Of a stretch of 12,933 bases of DNA, positions 3,092-12,825 are shown in pieces (positions within the stretch are counted from its first letter, which is position 1; every line of letters starts with the position of its first letter). The position numbers and the translations under genes are program-made. The notes under the pieces are model-generated. The model was not told the DNA's origin and made no database searches. It saw only the letters and a program-made list of their open reading frames with translations. The stretch is from Acidimicrobiales bacterium (lineage in GTDB: Bacteria; Actinomycetota; Acidimicrobiia; Acidimicrobiales; Iamiaceae): NCBI GenBank assembly GCA_020439605.1, contig JAGQSI010000022.1, positions 1 through 12,933 on the forward strand, read 5' to 3'.

Positions 3092-4915
3092 GTGCAAGCG
3101 ACACGCCCTGGAACCAAACCGAGAATTGATGGCCTTGATGGTCTTCGCGCGCTCGCAGTCGTGGGTGTGCTGCTCTACCACGCCGGCATTGGCTGGGCCC
3201 ACGGCGGCTTTATCGGAGTGGACGTTTTCTTCGTTCTGAGTGGATATCTGGTCACAAGCATTGTTGTGGCCCGCTTCCGTCAAAGTGGAGAACTTGGTTT
3301 CAGGCGCTTCTGGTCTGCTCGGTTCCGGCGTCTGGTCCCTGCCCAATTGGCTCTCATCGTCTCAGTGACGATTGTGGCTGCGCTTTTCTATTCCGAGGAG
3401 CTTGCCGATCTTCGAGGTCAGGCAATCGCTGCAATGTTGGGTGTCACCAACTGGTACCTCATTGCCACCGAGGGCTCCTATTTCGAACAGTTGGGCCGAC
3501 CACCGCTACTTCGACATCTGTGGTCCCTAGGTGTTGAGTTGCAGTTCTATCTGGTGTTTCCACCGTTGTTGGTCCTGGGCCTGAAAGTGGTCCGTGACCG
3601 GCTCGATCGGTTGGTCATCGTGATAGCGGTGGCCATCTTGGCCTCGACCGTCTATCTGGCGCTTGTGTTCGACCCGGCCTCCGATCCAACCCGTGCCTAC
3701 TTCGATACTTTCGCCCGCCTTGGCGCTCCGTTGATGGGAGCGCTGCTTGGATTGATCTGGCAACCGCGGTCCTTGGCGCGTGGGGTTGCCAACCAAGCCG
3801 GGGCAAAAGTGTCTGCCATAGGGGCAGGTGCAGTGGTGATTCTGCTCGTTCTCATGTCGATAGCCGATGATCGTTCGGCGCTCATGTACCGCGGTGGCTT
3901 CCTGTTCACAGCCATCGTGTCCACGGTGGTTGTGGCCGCGATCGTGCACCCGACGGGATGGCTGGGAAGCCAGCGAGCGTTCGGGCACCCGATACTGGTT
4001 GCCATTGGTCTTCGTTCCTATGGCCTTTACCTGTGGCACTGGCCGATCTTTGCGCTGTTGAGGCCACGAATCGATGTCGGATGGTCCTGGGGTGCGGTGT
4101 TCATCGTCAGAATTCTGCTCACGGTTGTGGCCACAGAGCTCTGTTATCGCTATATAGAGAAGCCTTGGCACATGCGTTCGGCGGACGCATCGTTTGCAGG
4201 TATACGTCGCCGACTGTTGCAGCCTTCGGGTATTGCGACCGGGCAGCGTTTAGCCGCGCTTGGCGGAACCTTCTTGGTTCTGGTTGCTGGAATCGTGATA
4301 GCGCTTCCTCACCACAAGAATGACGTGATTGCCCAGTCCCTCGATGATGGCCAAGCAGCGCTTGAACGAGCCGCAGCATCCACCACTGTTGCCCCCGCCC
4401 CGGGAACGCCAACCACCACGCAACTTCCCGAGCACGTCCCGGCGTCTGAGCGCACCGTGACCGTGGTTGGAGATTCGGTGTTGCTAGGTGCTGCCCCCGA
4501 TGTATTCAAGGCCTTCGGCAACAGAGCCAACATCGACGCCAAGGTCTCTCGTCAGGCCAGCGATCTTGGACCACTGATCGCTCAGTTGGGCAAGGAAGGG
4601 CGACTGGGTCAGGTGGTGGTGGCGCAGGTGGGCATAAACGGGGTGGTCACAGACGCGGACCTGCGCGCCATCGAGGCCGCCGCTGGCGCTCGGCCGCTCT
4701 ATGTGATCAACGCCAGGGTTCCTCGCTCATGGGAAGGTCCCAACAACTCCTTGGTGGCCGAGATGGTGCCAACGCTCAAAGAGGGTCACGTGATCGACTG
4801 GTATAGCGAGTCCGATGGCCGTCGGGACTGGTTTCTCAATGACGGAATCCATCTCACAGAGTCAGGCCGCGCTGGTTACGCCAACCTGATCCGAAAAGCG
4901 GTGGACGCGGGCTAG
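3092..4915 (+). CDS. Acyltransferase-3 family membrane O-acyltransferase with C-terminal SGNH domain (OafA/OatA type)
   Basis: The 607-aa product has about ten membrane helices forming the acyltransferase-3 domain (residues 12 to about 350). Visible motifs are R19-x10-H30 (LDGLRAL to LLYH), FFVLSGYLVT, RRFWSARFRRLVPA, LGVELQFYLVFP and YGLYLWHWPIF. A further helix follows at about 388-408, then an Ala/Thr/Pro-rich linker (about 425-450), then an extracytoplasmic SGNH domain. That domain has GDS at 460-462, a GING block III and DGIH at 584-587, supplying Ser462, Asp584 and His587. Such proteins pass acyl groups, usually acetyl, across the membrane onto cell-surface glycans or peptidoglycan; the substrate cannot be read here. 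Start is GTG 3092: an in-frame TAG at 3083 excludes anything earlier. TAATCT at 3076-3081 is a weak -10 candidate giving an almost leaderless message; otherwise the gene may be co-transcribed with the crotonase gene. Confidence 0.9.
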   Translation: MQATRPGTKPRIDGLDGLRALAVVGVLLYHAGIGWAHGGFIGVDVFFVLSGYLVTSIVVARFRQSGELGFRRFWSARFRRLVPAQLALIVSVTIVAALFYSEELADLRGQAIAAMLGVTNWYLIATEGSYFEQLGRPPLLRHLWSLGVELQFYLVFPPLLVLGLKVVRDRLDRLVIVIAVAILASTVYLALVFDPASDPTRAYFDTFARLGAPLMGALLGLIWQPRSLARGVANQAGAKVSAIGAGAVVILLVLMSIADDRSALMYRGGFLFTAIVSTVVVAAIVHPTGWLGSQRAFGHPILVAIGLRSYGLYLWHWPIFALLRPRIDVGWSWGAVFIVRILLTVVATELCYRYIEKPWHMRSADASFAGIRRRLLQPSGIATGQRLAALGGTFLVLVAGIVIALPHHKNDVIAQSLDDGQAALERAAASTTVAPAPGTPTTTQLPEHVPASERTVTVVGDSVLLGAAPDVFKAFGNRANIDAKVSRQASDLGPLIAQLGKEGRLGQVVVAQVGINGVVTDADLRAIEAAAGARPLYVINARVPRSWEGPNNSLVAEMVPTLKEGHVIDWYSESDGRRDWFLNDGIHLTESGRAGYANLIRKAVDAG

Positions 4916-4939
4916 GCAACCAAACCCACCGGGTGGTGG

Positions 4940-5015
4940 TGGTGGGGCGCCCGGGACTCGAACCCGGAACCAGCGGATTAAAAGTCCGATGCTCTGCCAA
5001 TTGAGCTAGCGCCCC
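4940..5015 (-). tRNA. trnK: tRNA-Lys (anticodon UUU), CCA encoded
   Basis: Read on the minus strand, the 76-nt sequence folds as a full cloverleaf. It has a 7-bp acceptor stem GGGGCGC/GCGCCCC, D stem GCTC/GAGC, anticodon loop CTTTTAA with anticodon TTT (4980-4982 on the + strand), T stem CCGGG/CCCGG with loop TTCGAGT, discriminator A and an encoded CCA (4940-4942). The 27-43 pair at the top of the anticodon stem is a U-C mismatch; the other stems are fully paired. It lies antisense between two same-strand acyltransferase genes, 24 nt from the first and 82 nt from the start of the second. Confidence 0.97.
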
Positions 5016-5026
5016 AGCGGATTGAC

Positions 5027-5032
5027 ACTTTA
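5027..5032 (-). promoter_or_regulatory. Candidate -10 box for tRNA-Lys
   Basis: On the minus strand TAAAGT sits 11 nt upstream of the first tRNA base, which would place the transcription start about 4 nt before the mature 5' end. No recognisable -35 hexamer lies 16-18 nt further upstream, so this is a position-based guess. Confidence 0.3.
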
Positions 5033-5097
5033 CGCGTCGCGCGTCGTTGGCTCTTAGTCCAGCGCGCCACCTAACTTTCCCGAGTGCGAAAGATCCG

Positions 5098-7002
5098 ATG
5101 AGCACCCACCAAAGCTTGGGGTACAGGCCGGCTCTCGATGGGCTGAGAGCAGTGGCGGTAATTGCCGTTTTGTGTTTCCACGGCGGGTTCGGCTGGGCCA
5201 GCGGCGGCTACCTCGGCGTCTCCACCTTCTTCACTCTCTCCGGGTTCTTGATCACCTATCTGCTTGTTTCAGAAACACGCGCCACCGGTCGAGTCGCCAT
5301 AGGCCAGTTCTACGCTCGTCGGGTCCGGCGGTTGATGCCAGCGAGTGTTCTCACGCTGAGCGCAGTGGTTGTAATGTCCAGGCTGGGAGCGTTTGGAGAT
5401 GTGTCCAACCTGAGGCGAGACGTTGTTGGAGCGGCGCTGCAACTTGGCAACTGGGCTCAACTCACATCGGGGCGTTCGTACGCGGACTTGTTCAAGACAG
5501 GGGTGTCGCCGGTAGAGCACTACTGGTCCTTGGCCATAGAGGAACAGTTCTACCTCCTTTGGCCGTTGGTGATAGCGGGGCTTGCCCGAGTGGGTCGTTC
5601 TACAAGAACCCAAACAGTGGTCGCGTTGTTTGTGGCTTTTGGGTTGGCGGCACCATGGATTTCAGCGGTCTGGGGGACAAACGCTGCATACCTGTCCACC
5701 CCGGCACGCCTGAGCGAGATACTGGCCGGGGCAGTTCTGGCGCTGTTGGTTCGCAGCCGAGGGCTGGAGCAGTTGCCGAAATGGTTGTCCCACACAGGCC
5801 CGCTCGCGCTGGCGGCGGTTCTGACGCTGTTTGTGGTTACGCCATCGGGACGAGGATGGGCCTATAGCGGCGGGCTGGCTCTGTTCGCGGTGTTGTCCGC
5901 GGTGGTGGTGGGCGCCGCGCTCGTTGAAGGCCCATTGCGGTCAGCGCTTGAGTTCAAGGGTCTGGTGAAGCTCGGAACGCTTAGTTACGGCATCTATCTG
6001 CTGCATTGGCCAATCTTCTTGGTTTTCGACGAACAGTGGCCCACCGCTTCGCCCTATCCAATGTTCGTTGCCAAGTGCATGGTCACCCTGGCGCTAGCGG
6101 CCGTGATGAACCAGGTGGTGGAACGGCCGATTCGTTTTGGCCAGAACCTTGAGCGAAACGTCTGGCTGAGCCTCGGTGCTCTGGTGGTAGTGATAGCGCT
6201 GGCTGCGGTGGCGCTACCGGGGGCCAGTCCTGGATTTGGGGCGGTGCCAGATACCAAGCGCAAAGCTGCAGAGTTCACCCCGGCCAATAGCGCCCTGGGG
6301 CCGGTAGCCAACGCTGACGGACAGTTGTTGCGTCCGCTGCGAGTGATGGTTGTGGGTGACTCAACCGGCGAGGTCTTTGCCAGAGCACTCATCGAATGGG
6401 CTGCTGAGAACCCGTCAAGAATGAGGGTTCAGTCCTACGCGCTCGGTGGATGCGGAATCGTGAAAGGTGGACGATTCGATGGCCTGGCAGATCTCACCAG
6501 AACCGAGTGCGATCAGACCATGCATCATGAACTTCCTCGTCTCTACGGCGACGCGCTCCCGGACATCGTCCTGATCTCGATCACCGTGGCCGACACGTGG
6601 GCACGTCGATGGAACGAGGGGCCATTGTTGGAACCAACCGATCCAAGCTTTCGCAAGCGGATCACCAATGACTACCCGGTCTTCTTCAATACGGCCATAG
6701 ATGCCGATGTGCCAAAGATCGTGTGGCTGCGGCCCCCTGTGGCCAAATCGATCTCTGGCACCCCTGACCCCAGTTTTGTCAACGGCAGCCAGGCCTTTAT
6801 CGAGACGGAGGTGCGCTCCATCGCGAACAGACACCCTGAACGGGTGGAGGTCCTTGACTATCGACGCTGGTTCGAGGCCGAAGGCATTGGTGACAAACCT
6901 GCGTTGCGCCCCGACGGCATACACCTGATCCGCCCAGAGGCAGACCGTGTGAGCGCCGAGTTCCTTGTCCCAGAGTTGATGACGCTGGTAGGTGTTGGAT
7001 AG
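5098..7002 (+). CDS. Second acyltransferase-3 / SGNH membrane O-acyltransferase
   Basis: From ATG 5098 the product is 634 aa, with the same architecture as the gene ending at 4915. The acyltransferase-3 domain shows R17-x10-H28 (LDGLRAV to LCFH), FFTLSGFLITYLL, FYARRVRRLMPA, LAIEEQFYLLWP and YGIYLLHWPIF. One more helix lies at about 356-378, followed by an external SGNH domain with GDS at 420-422, a block-II-like LGGCGI and DGIH at 606-609. The block III position reads SITVADTW, without the Gly-x-Asn of the first copy, so the oxyanion asparagine may be absent or displaced. The frame extends to TTG 5047, but ATG 5098 starts just before the family's usual N-terminus and has GAAAG at 5088-5092 upstream. 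The two copies differ widely outside the motifs, so this is an old duplication or two related genes with different substrates. Confidence 0.9.
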   Translation: MSTHQSLGYRPALDGLRAVAVIAVLCFHGGFGWASGGYLGVSTFFTLSGFLITYLLVSETRATGRVAIGQFYARRVRRLMPASVLTLSAVVVMSRLGAFGDVSNLRRDVVGAALQLGNWAQLTSGRSYADLFKTGVSPVEHYWSLAIEEQFYLLWPLVIAGLARVGRSTRTQTVVALFVAFGLAAPWISAVWGTNAAYLSTPARLSEILAGAVLALLVRSRGLEQLPKWLSHTGPLALAAVLTLFVVTPSGRGWAYSGGLALFAVLSAVVVGAALVEGPLRSALEFKGLVKLGTLSYGIYLLHWPIFLVFDEQWPTASPYPMFVAKCMVTLALAAVMNQVVERPIRFGQNLERNVWLSLGALVVVIALAAVALPGASPGFGAVPDTKRKAAEFTPANSALGPVANADGQLLRPLRVMVVGDSTGEVFARALIEWAAENPSRMRVQSYALGGCGIVKGGRFDGLADLTRTECDQTMHHELPRLYGDALPDIVLISITVADTWARRWNEGPLLEPTDPSFRKRITNDYPVFFNTAIDADVPKIVWLRPPVAKSISGTPDPSFVNGSQAFIETEVRSIANRHPERVEVLDYRRWFEAEGIGDKPALRPDGIHLIRPEADRVSAEFLVPELMTLVGVG

Positions 7003-11082: not shown

Positions 11083-11430
11083 TCAGGCTGAACGGAGGTG
11101 CTCAGGGATCGGCACCTCCGGTAGTTGCTCCTCAGGTCTTGGGACTTTCGAGGGCCGGCCTTTTCGTCTCTTGGATGTGAGTATCCGTCCACCAGAGAAC
11201 AGTTGTCCTCCCCACACGCCCCATGGTTCACGGCGATCCAGCGCAGCTTCGAGGCACTGGACCATCACTGGACACTGTGCACACAGCCGCTTGGCTGCGG
11301 CGATGTCTTGAAGCTCATCCGAGAAGAACATCTCGGTGAATCCGCCGCTGCCAGTAGCGCACAGCGCGTCAAGCTTCCATAAGAGGTCTTCGAGTTGAAC
11401 AGGGGTTTCGAGTACTGCGATTGCGGTCAT
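11083..11430 (-). CDS. whiB7: WhiB7-type iron-sulfur transcriptional regulator
   Basis: The 115-aa product has the four cluster-ligand cysteines of WhiB proteins (Cys24, Cys50, Cys53, Cys59; the last three as LCAQCPVMVQC). EPW (68-70) and GVWGG (71-75), the turn that contacts the primary sigma factor, follow, then FSGGRILTSKRRKGRPSK. The combination EPWGVWGG, an acidic or polar step, F--G-I, and a basic C-terminal AT-hook (KRRKGRPSK, 87-95) is diagnostic of WhiB7, which recognises AT-rich DNA just upstream of -35 boxes and turns on intrinsic antibiotic-resistance genes. The 20-residue tail after the AT-hook (EEQLPEVPIPEHLRSA) is longer than in Mycobacterium. AAGGA, 6 nt before ATG 11430, is a good ribosome binding site. 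A long leader upstream suggests attenuation control. Confidence 0.9.
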   Translation of the reverse strand: MTAIAVLETPVQLEDLLWKLDALCATGSGGFTEMFFSDELQDIAAAKRLCAQCPVMVQCLEAALDRREPWGVWGGQLFSGGRILTSKRRKGRPSKVPRPEEQLPEVPIPEHLRSA

Positions 11431-11474
11431 TGTTGTTCCTTGTGGGTTTTGTGAGGGTGAGCTGGAAAAGGCGA

Positions 11475-11502
11475 AAGGCCGCTGGGTTGTCCCAGCGGCC
11501 TT
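11475..11502 (-). terminator. Strong hairpin in the whiB7 leader, putative attenuator terminator
   Basis: The stem is a perfect 12-bp inverted repeat: read on the minus strand, AAGGCCGCTGGG, loop ACAA, CCCAGCGGCCTT. It is followed by TCGCCTTTTCC, a moderate U-rich tract. It lies 33 nt after the stop of the leader ORF and 44 nt before the whiB7 start codon, so termination here would prevent whiB7 expression. The repeat is symmetrical, but nothing on the + strand would use it. Confidence 0.75.
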
Positions 11503-11558
11503 CGGAGGAGATTGGATCTCGGTTGGGATTGTTCCCTACTGCGAGTCCTCCAAAGGCC
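11497..11558 (-). promoter_or_regulatory. Putative antiterminator helix in the whiB7 leader
   Basis: Read on the minus strand, GGCCTTTGGAGGA (11558-11546, inside the last codons of the leader ORF) can pair with TCCTCCGAAGGCC (11509-11497) in 13 contiguous base pairs, one of them G-U. The second partner contains six bases of the terminator's 5' arm, so this helix and the terminator cannot coexist. Two small hairpins lie in the intervening loop or nearby: GAGAT/ATCTC (11508-11520) and GGGA/TCCC (11525-11536). Confidence 0.65.
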
Positions 11559-11712
11559 TTGTGAAAATGGAGTGATGCTTATTGCCGTGAGTGGTTACCG
11601 GGGCTGAGGGCTTCACAGCGGTGAAGCGATAAGCAGCGCTGGACCAGCGAGAGCGCGCGCCAGCACCGTTGGTGGCCATTGGGCCCCAAGTGGTGGTGGT
11701 CAAGGTCTTCAC
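11536..11712 (-). CDS. 58-codon leader ORF upstream of whiB7 (putative attenuation uORF)
   Basis: The frame runs from GTG 11712 to TAG 11536-11538. A GGAGA ribosome binding site (11719-11723) sits 6 nt before the start, and about 70 percent of codons end in G or C, as in the neighbouring genes. The predicted peptide is basic and soluble; it starts VKTLTTTTWGPMATNGAGAR and ends HHSIFTRPLEDSQ, with a run of four threonines and His/Arg/Trp-rich stretches. No known family comes to mind. It fills most of the gap between orn and whiB7, on their strand. An internal hairpin CTTCAC/GTGAAG lies at 11611-11626, and the last codons overlap the putative antiterminator. Its likely role is to let a translating ribosome sense antibiotic or amino-acid stress and control whiB7 read-through. 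An independent small protein gene is the alternative. Confidence 0.65.
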   Translation of the reverse strand: MKTLTTTTWGPMATNGAGARSRWSSAAYRFTAVKPSAPVTTHGNKHHSIFTRPLEDSQ

Positions 11713-11741
11713 TGGTCTTCTCCGTGCGGCTTTAGAACTAG

Positions 11742-11759
11742 GACGCCAGAAAAGGCGTC
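11742..11759 (-). other. Small hairpin downstream of orn
   Basis: Read on the minus strand, GACGCC, loop TTTTCT, GGCGTC forms a 6-bp stem about 30 nt after the orn stop codon. There is no U-tract after it, so it is a poor intrinsic terminator; it may simply mark the end of the orn message or the 5' edge of the whiB7 leader. Confidence 0.35.
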
Positions 11760-11764
11760 AAACC

Positions 11765-11801
11765 AATCAACAACTTCTGGCGAGAGTTGTCAAATGATTT
11801 T
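11765..11801 (-). promoter_or_regulatory. whiB7: Candidate whiB7 leader promoter with AT-rich upstream patch
   Basis: On the minus strand the consensus -35 TTGACA (11788-11793) is followed after exactly 17 nt by the weak -10 TTGATT (11765-11770). The patch AAAATCAT (11794-11801) lies directly upstream of the -35. WhiB7 is known to activate promoters, including its own, that carry an AT-rich patch at this place, so autoregulation fits. The -35 overlaps the orn stop codon (TGA, 11790-11792). The start would be near 11758, about 46 nt before the leader ORF. The poor -10 is the weak point. Confidence 0.45.
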
Positions 11802-12341
11802 CTGTTCCGGTGGCAAGAAAAGCGTTGAGCGGTAGTGCTGTAGCTCGGCGACGCTCTCTCGAATGTCGTCGAGAGCTCGGTGAGCGGTTGCCTTACGAGG
11901 AAGAGAACTGAGTGCGGTTGGGTTCCAACGTCGAGCCAATTCCTTGAGCGTAGAAACATCCACACTGCGGTAGTGCAGGTACTCCTCGATGTCGTTCAGG
12001 TACTTGGCCAGAAAACGGCGATCGGTTCCGATCGAGTTGCCGCACAACGGAACGGTGTTGGGCTCGGCGATGTGCTCCTGGAGAAATGCGAGCGTTTCTG
12101 CGCCAGCTTGTTCCAGGGAAATGGTTGAAGCAGCTATGGCCTCTAGCAAGCCGCTCTTGGTGTGCATCTCTACAACCACCTCGTCCATTTCGGCGAGCGC
12201 AGCATCGTTCTGATGGACAACTAGGTCGGGGCCCTCGGCGATGATGTTGAGATCGTCATCTGTGATCAACGTGGCTATCTCCACGATCACATGGCGCTCC
12301 GGGTCCAAGCCGGTCATCTCAAGATCCATCCATGCGAGCAT
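11790..12341 (-). CDS. orn: Oligoribonuclease (DEDDh 3'-5' exoribonuclease)
   Basis: From ATG 12341 the product is 183 aa, the normal length. All DEDDh residues are visible: Asp6 and Glu8 in MDLEMTGLDP, Asp107 in GNSIGTDRRFL, and His154 with Asp158 in AHRALDDIRES. Other Orn blocks are RYLND-like KYLNDIEEYLHYRSVDVSTLKEL and the C-terminal YRSTLFLP. Orn degrades 2-5-nt RNAs and pGpG, the breakdown product of cyclic di-GMP; a diguanylate cyclase is also encoded in this window. The frame extends to ATG 12404, but this would overlap dut. ATG 12341 gives the canonical N-terminus and has a -10-like TATCCT 6 nt upstream, indicating a leaderless start. Confidence 0.95.
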   Translation of the reverse strand: MLAWMDLEMTGLDPERHVIVEIATLITDDDLNIIAEGPDLVVHQNDAALAEMDEVVVEMHTKSGLLEAIAASTISLEQAGAETLAFLQEHIAEPNTVPLCGNSIGTDRRFLAKYLNDIEEYLHYRSVDVSTLKELARRWNPTALSSLPRKATAHRALDDIRESVAELQHYRSTLFLPPEQKII

Positions 12342-12347
12342 CAATGG

Positions 12348-12353
12348 AGGATA
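12348..12353 (-). promoter_or_regulatory. Candidate -10 box for orn (leaderless)
   Basis: On the minus strand TATCCT ends 6 nt before ATG 12341, which is the spacing that puts the transcription start on the start codon. There is no purine-rich ribosome binding site in front of this ATG. A TTGACG lies upstream at a 21-nt spacing, too far to be a normal -35. Confidence 0.5.
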
Positions 12354-12371
12354 GGCCGCTGGGCGGTGCTC

Positions 12372-12377
12372 TAGCGT
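12372..12377 (+). promoter_or_regulatory. Candidate -10 box for dut (leaderless)
   Basis: TAGCGT (pattern TAnnnT) ends 7 nt before GTG 12385, consistent with transcription starting at the start codon. No ribosome binding site and no clear -35 are present. It is back to back with the orn box in a 43-nt divergent intergenic space. Confidence 0.42.
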
Positions 12378-12384
12378 CAACGGC

Positions 12385-12825
12385 GTGCTGAGAGTTCCGT
12401 TCATCCGTCTTGACCCAGACCTCCCGCCGCCGACCTACGCCCACGTAGGTGATGCCGGCGCTGATCTAAGAGCCCGTGAAAGTGTCACGTTGGCGCCGGG
12501 CGGGGGAAGGGCCCTGGTCCCAACTGGCCTAGCGATAGCACTGCCGGAGGGAACCGCTGGCTTCATTCAGCCTCGCAGTGGCCTAGCCCTCAAACACGGG
12601 GTCACCTGTCTCAATACGCCAGGGCTGATAGACGCTGGATACCGCGATGAACTCAAGGTGATCCTGGTGAACCTCGACCCCACCGAGGCCTTTGAGGTTG
12701 TGCGCGGCGAGCGCATCGCGCAGTTGGTGATTCAGAAAGTTGAGACCGCGCACTTCGAGGAGTCGCCAGACCTCGGGGATTCCACACGCGGCACGGGAGG
12801 GTTTGGTTCCACCGGCCGACACTGA
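12385..12825 (+). CDS. dut: dUTP diphosphatase (trimeric dUTPase)
   Basis: The 146-aa product hydrolyses dUTP to dUMP and pyrophosphate, keeping uracil out of DNA and feeding dTMP synthesis. All five trimeric-dUTPase motifs are present in order: GDAGADLR (22-29), PRSGLA (63-68), LIDAGYRDE (81-89, with catalytic Asp83), RGERIAQL (108-115) and the glycine-rich arm [10 protein letters not shown] (135-144). The N-terminus ([20 protein letters not shown]) matches actinobacterial dUTPases, supporting GTG 12385 as the start. The gene is divergent from orn, and the promoters must share 43 nt. Confidence 0.97.

Follow-up and report, generated by a model that had tools for sequence, protein, structure and literature searches.

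What is encoded between orn and whiB7 in this genome of the Acidimicrobiia, and to which signal would it respond? The window, the whole stretch of 12,933 nt analysed here, is contig C144 of a metagenome-assembled genome with an estimated completeness of 70%. On its minus strand, direct reading gave the order orn, WhiB7-type promoter element, GGAGA, upstream open reading frame (uORF), hairpin with tail, second ribosome-binding site and whiB7. An earlier note on this DNA had read the region as a uORF with a conditional terminator. This reading was backed by an antiterminator pairing, the decisive part, which the note had missed, and by conservation in relatives. The leader is very probably a ribosome-mediated transcription attenuator homologous to the known whiB7/wblC leader, with a further layer that appears to lie in the amino-acid content of the uORF peptide. 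The attenuator is carried by the anatomy of the leader, the mutually exclusive pairing of its arms, and conservation and covariation.

Anatomy of the whiB7 leader

The gene whiB7 (11083-11430, minus strand, 115 aa) encodes a WhiB7 orthologue. Its product matched Pfam Whib at 61.7 bits, and its top PDB match was WhiB7 with 71.2 bits, the next Wbl type following at 36.9 bits. NCBIfam gave no match for the product. Its KGRPSK tail is presumably AT-hook-like. It was one of four Whib-family matches in the genome. The gene and its ribosome-binding site AAGGA (11441-11437, minus strand) were found as the earlier note had described them. The upstream neighbour on the same strand is the oligoribonuclease gene orn (11790-12404; NCBIfam equivalog PRK05359.1, 258.5 bits). 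At gathering score, Rfam placed no curated family at the leader, and its sole match in the window was a tRNA at 4943-5015. This tRNA gene lies between two tandem plus-strand ORFs (3092-7002), on the opposite strand to them. We take these ORFs to resemble acyltransferase-3 of the OafA type.

The element that the earlier note had called promoter-like, at 11788-11803 on the minus strand, is of the WhiB7 type and consists of the A/T-rich AGAAAATCAT followed by the -35 hexamer TTGACA (11793-11788). The pattern recurred in 34 of 68 leaders, where base shuffles expect 1.8. An A/T-rich element adjoining the -35, serving WhiB7 autoactivation, is a defining mark of the whiB7/wblC attenuator, and by sequence pattern the window has it; WhiB7 would bind at this element. 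The TGA stop of orn falls within the -35 hexamer (11788-11793), so that the end of orn and the promoter cannot diverge freely. A weak candidate -10, TTGATT (11765-11770, minus strand, 17-nt spacer), was assigned from sequence and leader consensus, and transcription may tentatively start near 11758. A generic sigma-70 promoter scan found none in the window.

The uORF of 58 codons runs on the minus strand from GTG 11712 to TAG 11536 (11536-11712) behind the ribosome-binding site GGAGA (11719-11723), both read directly and in agreement with the earlier note. Its peptide contains 19 of the 20 amino acids, lacking Cys. Pfam and NCBIfam gave no match for it, and BLASTP gave no alignment with one mycobacterial uORF.

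Between the uORF and whiB7, the minus strand carries an intrinsic terminator hairpin, AAGGCCGCTGGG-ACAA-CCCAGCGGCCTT (11474-11503), with 12 Watson-Crick pairs and one G-U pair, followed by the tail CGCCTTTT (11466-11473). Shuffles of the region 11530-11460 averaged -14.8 kcal/mol, and none of 200 was as good as the real sequence at -30.0 kcal/mol (z -6.0), which confirms the noted 12-bp terminator-like hairpin at 12-13 bp. A generic terminator scan omitted the hairpin, as its rule wants 5 T in 8 bases and only 4 are present here. The 5′ arm of the antiterminator, GGCCTTTGGAGGA (11546-11558), lies within the last uORF codons. Its 3′ arm, TCCTCCGAAGGCC (11497-11509), shares 7 nt with the terminator 5′ arm, so that the two structures are mutually exclusive, which is the textbook layout of ribosome-mediated attenuation. 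In an RNA ending at the terminator loop the antiterminator formed (-36.2 kcal/mol), and in the hairpin region alone the terminator formed (-30.0 kcal/mol). When all of 11570-11435 was folded, the minimum-energy structure held the terminator but the antiterminator only in part. When the sequence upstream was dinucleotide-shuffled 100 times, no shuffle equalled the pairing of the window antiterminator (z -3.5).

This layout suggests the following course of events, in which start site, termination, readthrough and autoactivation are predicted from the sequence of this organism. A WhiB7-responsive promoter would give a leader of about 330 nt. A ribosome reading the uORF to its stop would cover 11558-11546 and no antiterminator would form, whereupon the terminator at 11503-11474 would fold and transcription would end. 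A ribosome stalled upstream, or failing to initiate, would leave the arm free to capture 11509-11497, and the polymerase would enter whiB7, whose product would boost its own promoter. By our own geometry, the arm stays free when the P site is at about codon 47 or earlier. On the ilvB1 uORF, about 26 nt are reported to be masked by a ribosome that has reached the stop (PMC13236596), which would be enough to cover the antiterminator arm of the window.

Leader conservation in relatives and likeness to known attenuators

Of 397 genomes from the order, 250 had a match to this WhiB7 with an E-value of 1e-20 or better. From 209 loci with a WhiB7 match, 194 remained after removal of duplicates and 192 were long enough. 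Of these, 179 showed a hairpin, and 162 had a stem score of at least 24 and enough upstream sequence. Two of the 162 (L101 and L112) belong to other classes and were excluded from the peptide tests. Within the genus of the window, the rule found the hairpin in eight of ten other leaders; the remaining two, L011 and L012, failed its T-tail requirement and show the same hairpin by eye. The terminator 5′ arm carried GCCGYYGG in 146 of the 162 strong leaders. In 130 of the 162, no more than 5 of 100 dinucleotide shuffles equalled the pairing of the antiterminator, and in 60 none did. A uORF of 40-80 codons with a ribosome-binding site ended at the antiterminator arm in 94 of 162 leaders, and the same finder gave such a uORF at 74 of 1590 places chosen at random from the opposite strand. 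The hairpin and ORF noted earlier are thus conserved in relatives. In one relative (L014) the uORF has just 36 codons, and the GGCC core is missing from the antiterminator arm.

Covariation, proposed as a check in the earlier note, was clear for the terminator and weaker for the antiterminator. A usable stop was present in 152 leaders, of which 67 were aligned; the alignment is poor in the uORF part. In the terminator, 99.7% of the cells were paired (slid controls 28-59%) and 7 of 12 pairs had changes on both sides. The antiterminator was far less uniform, with 60.2% of cells paired against 35.7-51.8% in slid controls. Its 79 cells with double changes were matched in a single one of 500 shuffles. 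Of five covariation measures, two showed no excess over shuffles: the number of antiterminator pairs with double changes was reached by 326 of 500 shuffles, and that of further pair types by 75 of 500. On average, an arm paired with its own partner at -29.7 kcal/mol and with partners from other leaders at -23.8 kcal/mol. In 66 of 162 leaders, no more than 5 of the 60 foreign arms equalled the own arm; on the terminator arm of the window, 14 of 60 foreign arms matched the own arm.

A covariance model of the 67 leaders was run on 41 loci from other actinobacteria and 5 held-out loci. The window scored 57.3 bits, by construction, as its leader is in the model. Four of the 41 loci (L242, L233, L222 and L243), from genomes outside the class, gave full-length matches with E-values of 2e-6 to 0.009, located 114-139 nt before the WhiB7 match on the same strand. 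A similarly placed match in L228 had an E-value of 0.77. The other 36 loci, including most mycobacterial and Streptomyces-like ones, gave no match in place. A second attenuator in the genome was sought with the model, and the next matches, of 26.9 and 21.4 bits, were unconvincing. The match of 26.9 bits lies at the 3′ end of an ORF, presumably MarR-like, between convergent genes.

Seven of 11 leaders of the genus (L006, L008, L009, L010, L011, L012 and L015) have a second short ORF of 7-14 codons between terminator and whiB7, which is absent from the window. It ends in RPPD, RPPG, HPPD, RPSD or RPPT before the stop, as in MTTRPPD and MDHHHPHHDHRPPG. PPD and PPG are motifs at which stalling depends on EF-P, and these relatives may therefore possess a second control step, at the level of translation.

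The uORF attenuator of whiB7/wblC is reportedly treated by Lee (2022), Burian and Thompson (2018) and Poulton (2024). The uORF and terminator of whiB7 were described by Dinan (2014; PMC4128351), the same attenuation logic has been published for whiB7/wblC (PMC11550727, PMC10727445, PMC13393426), and the attenuator was described for actinobacteria in general (PMC10727445). The leader studied here shares with the Mycobacterium/Streptomyces attenuator the long leader, a uORF with Shine-Dalgarno sequence, an intrinsic terminator after the uORF, an antiterminator formed from overlapping uORF and terminator sequences, an autoregulated promoter and whiB7 as target. It differs in its occurrence in Acidimicrobiia and in a uORF peptide without sequence similarity. 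The earlier note's 'apparently unrelated leader peptide' therefore holds at the peptide level, whereas the switch itself is the known whiB7/wblC attenuator (PMC10727445; 4 of the 41 other loci). Ribosome position selects antiterminator or terminator in the trp, his and ilv attenuators and in ilvB1 of M. tuberculosis (PMC13236596) as well. In contrast to these, the leader has no run of a single codon, about one codon per scarce amino acid and a global stress regulator as target. A cluster of codons for one amino acid that downstream enzymes produce, as in attenuators of amino-acid biosynthesis, was not found, and the target is a transcription factor. The toiL uORF of topAI in E. coli likewise senses several classes of ribosome-targeting drugs with one uORF (PMC12121999); organism and target are different, and amino-acid completeness was not seen discussed in the available text on toiL.

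Amino-acid content of the leader peptides

Leader peptides of the relatives were barely alike; all that they share is a tendency towards K...RRP.E.S at the C-terminus, where the antiterminator imposes a constraint. Lys was common at position -12 (47 of 153 peptides). Apart from L088, a one-codon assignment that was set aside, lengths ranged from 14 to 124 aa. Among 26 close pairs, used instead of 255 DNA pairs with gappy alignments, substitutions at codon positions 1, 2 and 3 numbered 158, 176 and 180, indicating almost no conservation of peptide sequence. Only 52 of 102 indels among close pairs were in frame. Codon-position conservation as evidence of coding was thus absent in the 26 pairs. 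Translation of the uORF is indicated by its excess over chance, its stop position and its frame-specific content. Stops were sought only between antiterminator arm and terminator, so that stop-position counts arise partly by construction. Start codons were set by rule and some are probably wrong.

The filter (40-80 aa, Shine-Dalgarno score of 4 or more, ATG or GTG start) retained 94 peptides, of which 69 were below 45% identity. Genomes of the order of the window supplied 47 of them, and named records, a few of which have doubtful titles, the other 22. These 69 held 18.94 distinct amino acids on average, compared with 17.70 when residues were permuted among the peptides (sd 0.12, maximum of 1000 runs 18.07). 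All 20 amino acids occurred in 30 of 69 peptides (permutation mean 5.0, maximum 12 in 1000 runs) and at least 19 in 47 (mean 20.2, maximum 32 in 1000 runs). Controls were lower, with 16.5 distinct amino acids in host-protein windows, 16.4 in shadow ORFs with ribosome-binding sites, 14.3 and 15.5 in frames +1 and +2 after removal of stops, and 17.6 in codon-position base shuffles. Both parts of the set showed the excess, the order peptides with 19.04 (permutation 17.80, sd 0.15) and the named records with 18.73 (17.46, sd 0.21), neither value being reached in 2000 permutations. The permutation takes no account of residual kinship. One peptide from each of 30 families gave 19.03 (17.65, sd 0.19; none of 5000 permutations as high), and 24 of these 30 had at least 19 amino acids (permutation mean 8.6, maximum 18). 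The picks were made by hand with the peptides in view, mostly by lowest locus number, and 30 of 32 were 35 aa or longer. Random picks per family gave a mean of 18.98 over 100 draws, with an excess of at least 1.16 in every draw. Kinship is therefore an unlikely cause of the completeness, given these per-family tests and the scatter of positions described below.

The excess was spread over several residues. Trp was present in 66 of 69 peptides (expected 48.5), usually once and at scattered positions. Tyr was present in 63 (47.2), Cys in 51 (40.3), Ile in 66 (55.9), Met beyond the start in 62 (54.2), Phe in 68 (60.8), Asn in 67 (61.5) and Lys in 68 (61.3). His (67, expected 63.2) and Asp (60, expected 55.1) were about 2 sd above expectation, the Asp excess not being clear, and Glu (55, expected 53.9) and Gln (57, expected 59.0) showed no excess. 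Counts were underdispersed, with variance-to-mean ratios of 0.21 for Trp, 0.31 for Tyr, 0.43 for Cys and 0.59 for Ile. The position of a lone Trp, counted from the stop, had an sd of 11.7 codons, and W preceded Y in 31 of 61 peptides. Scattered positions and random order argue against one conserved motif, and conserved arrest-peptide positions were ruled out on the same grounds. After removal of the last 10 residues the effect persisted (18.42 vs 16.99, sd 0.13). Selection for many codons or isoacceptors was rejected, as distinct codons (33.93) were slightly fewer than under synonymous permutation (34.49, sd 0.21), which places the content signal at the amino-acid level. The macrolide arrest motif [KR]x[KR] occurred in the body of 60 of 141 peptides, compared with 54.1 (sd 5.1) after shuffling, and was likewise discarded.

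The window peptide alone, with 19 of 20 amino acids, is not significantly complete (p 0.054 and 0.198). Its codons 1-48, the part in which a stalled ribosome would not block the antiterminator arm, encode 15 amino acids; Ile, Asp, Glu, Gln and Cys are absent there. A weaker excess was seen in 20 peptides from other actinobacteria (17.80 vs 17.00, sd 0.23; 1 of 2000 permutations as high). Nine Mycobacterium-like peptides (L107, L110, L113 and L214-L219; three from Mycobacterium, six from genus g247) had 16.22 (vs 15.17, sd 0.32; 2 of 2000) with 32% Ala, compared with an average of 18.9 in the set of 69. KHR or KRR recurs in these Mycobacterium-like peptides, unlike the even composition in Acidimicrobiales. 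Held-out replication of the completeness was weak. From 28 held-out loci, 4 had no strong terminator, 3 had known peptides and 4 failed the rules for start, Shine-Dalgarno sequence or length. The 17 new peptides tested gave 18.65 vs 17.87 (27 of 5000 as high), with Trp in 14 (expected 12.2). Just two held-out peptides shared less than 45% identity with the discovery set, and this pair showed no excess.

Taken from the relatives, the content layer would consist in selection on content, at about one codon per scarce amino acid in any position, and not on sequence. With such a peptide, shortage of almost any charged tRNA could trip the switch, in addition to ribosome-targeting drugs. In M. abscessus, whiB7 is reported as the most induced transcript upon cleavage of tRNA-Ser(CGA), and of some of the tRNA-fMet, by the toxin VapC5 (PMC10287673), and WblC is described as responding to amino-acid starvation (PMC12421871, PMC12121999). 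Both responses lend support from the literature to a broad whiB7 signal.

Alternative readings and significance

Two alternatives dispense with the attenuator as the primary function. The hairpin might simply terminate orn, which lies directly upstream in the window, with the uORF a chance ORF. Among 30 loci with about 1.5 kb of upstream sequence (L005-L034), however, 15 had no orn match, and 14 of these 15 kept a strong terminator before whiB7, which makes the leader independent of orn. Furthermore, the promoter element and the uORF intervene between orn and hairpin, uORFs are far commoner than chance, and frame-specific completeness is not expected of an untranslated frame. We hold this explanation to be extremely improbable. 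Scarcely better is the chance that the uORF encodes a functional small protein to which attenuation is secondary. A ribosome-binding site with at least 4 matching bases precedes 138 of 160 uORFs, a count raised by the finder, which favours such starts. Against a small protein stand the range of lengths, the even spread of substitutions over codon positions, the random order of residues and the missing Pfam or NCBIfam match of the window peptide.

The other two alternatives accept the attenuator and concern what it senses. Each peptide might hold a specific arrest motif or be a sensor of one amino acid such as Trp or Lys, as in trp, his and ilv leaders. The near-universal presence of Trp and Lys and the frequent Lys at -12 would fit this, yet Trp is mostly single and without runs, its position varies widely, and the excess presence is shared by W, Y, C, I, M, F, N and K; we consider a specific sensor quite unlikely. 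A plain antibiotic sensor, whose peptides became complete incidentally through rapid neutral drift or a variety of drug-stalling contexts, deserves more weight, and we still rate it as doubtful. Leaders of whiB7/wblC answer many ribosome-targeting drugs (PMC11550727, PMC12121999), and the weak held-out replication also speaks for it. However, drift at the same composition gives 17.6-17.7 distinct residues and not 18.9, and Trp, Tyr, Cys and Ile are underdispersed. To our knowledge, the stalling contexts for chloramphenicol, linezolid or macrolides have no need for Trp, Tyr or Cys, which also argues against this explanation.

Judging by the peptide content, the switch appears to respond to more than antibiotics. 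It is about an even call that in Acidimicrobiales, and less strongly in other Actinomycetota, the whiB7 leader peptide acts as a test strip for all amino acids, making whiB7 a general alarm for translation failure rather than an antibiotic sensor.

Usually, a leader peptide is taken to sense one particular amino acid or a single drug. At base, the finding is a known attenuator type in a class from which we found no report; literature naming both whiB7 and Acidimicrobiia (among it PMC10205998) treats, in the passages covered, the gene family and not its leader. The near-complete amino-acid inventory of the leader peptides looks new, as no leader peptide with all amino acids was described among the titles and abstract openings listed by literature searches, including those on whiB7 leaders; most subscription papers were outside their scope. 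The whiB7 attenuator is thereby extended to a largely uncultured actinobacterial class. Should the content result hold, the question of what the uORF senses would be answered, with a peptide selected for its amino-acid inventory over its sequence, and underdispersion of composition offers a way to find other general translation sensors. If the test-strip reading is true, one RNA switch would report the failure of any aminoacyl-tRNA supply.
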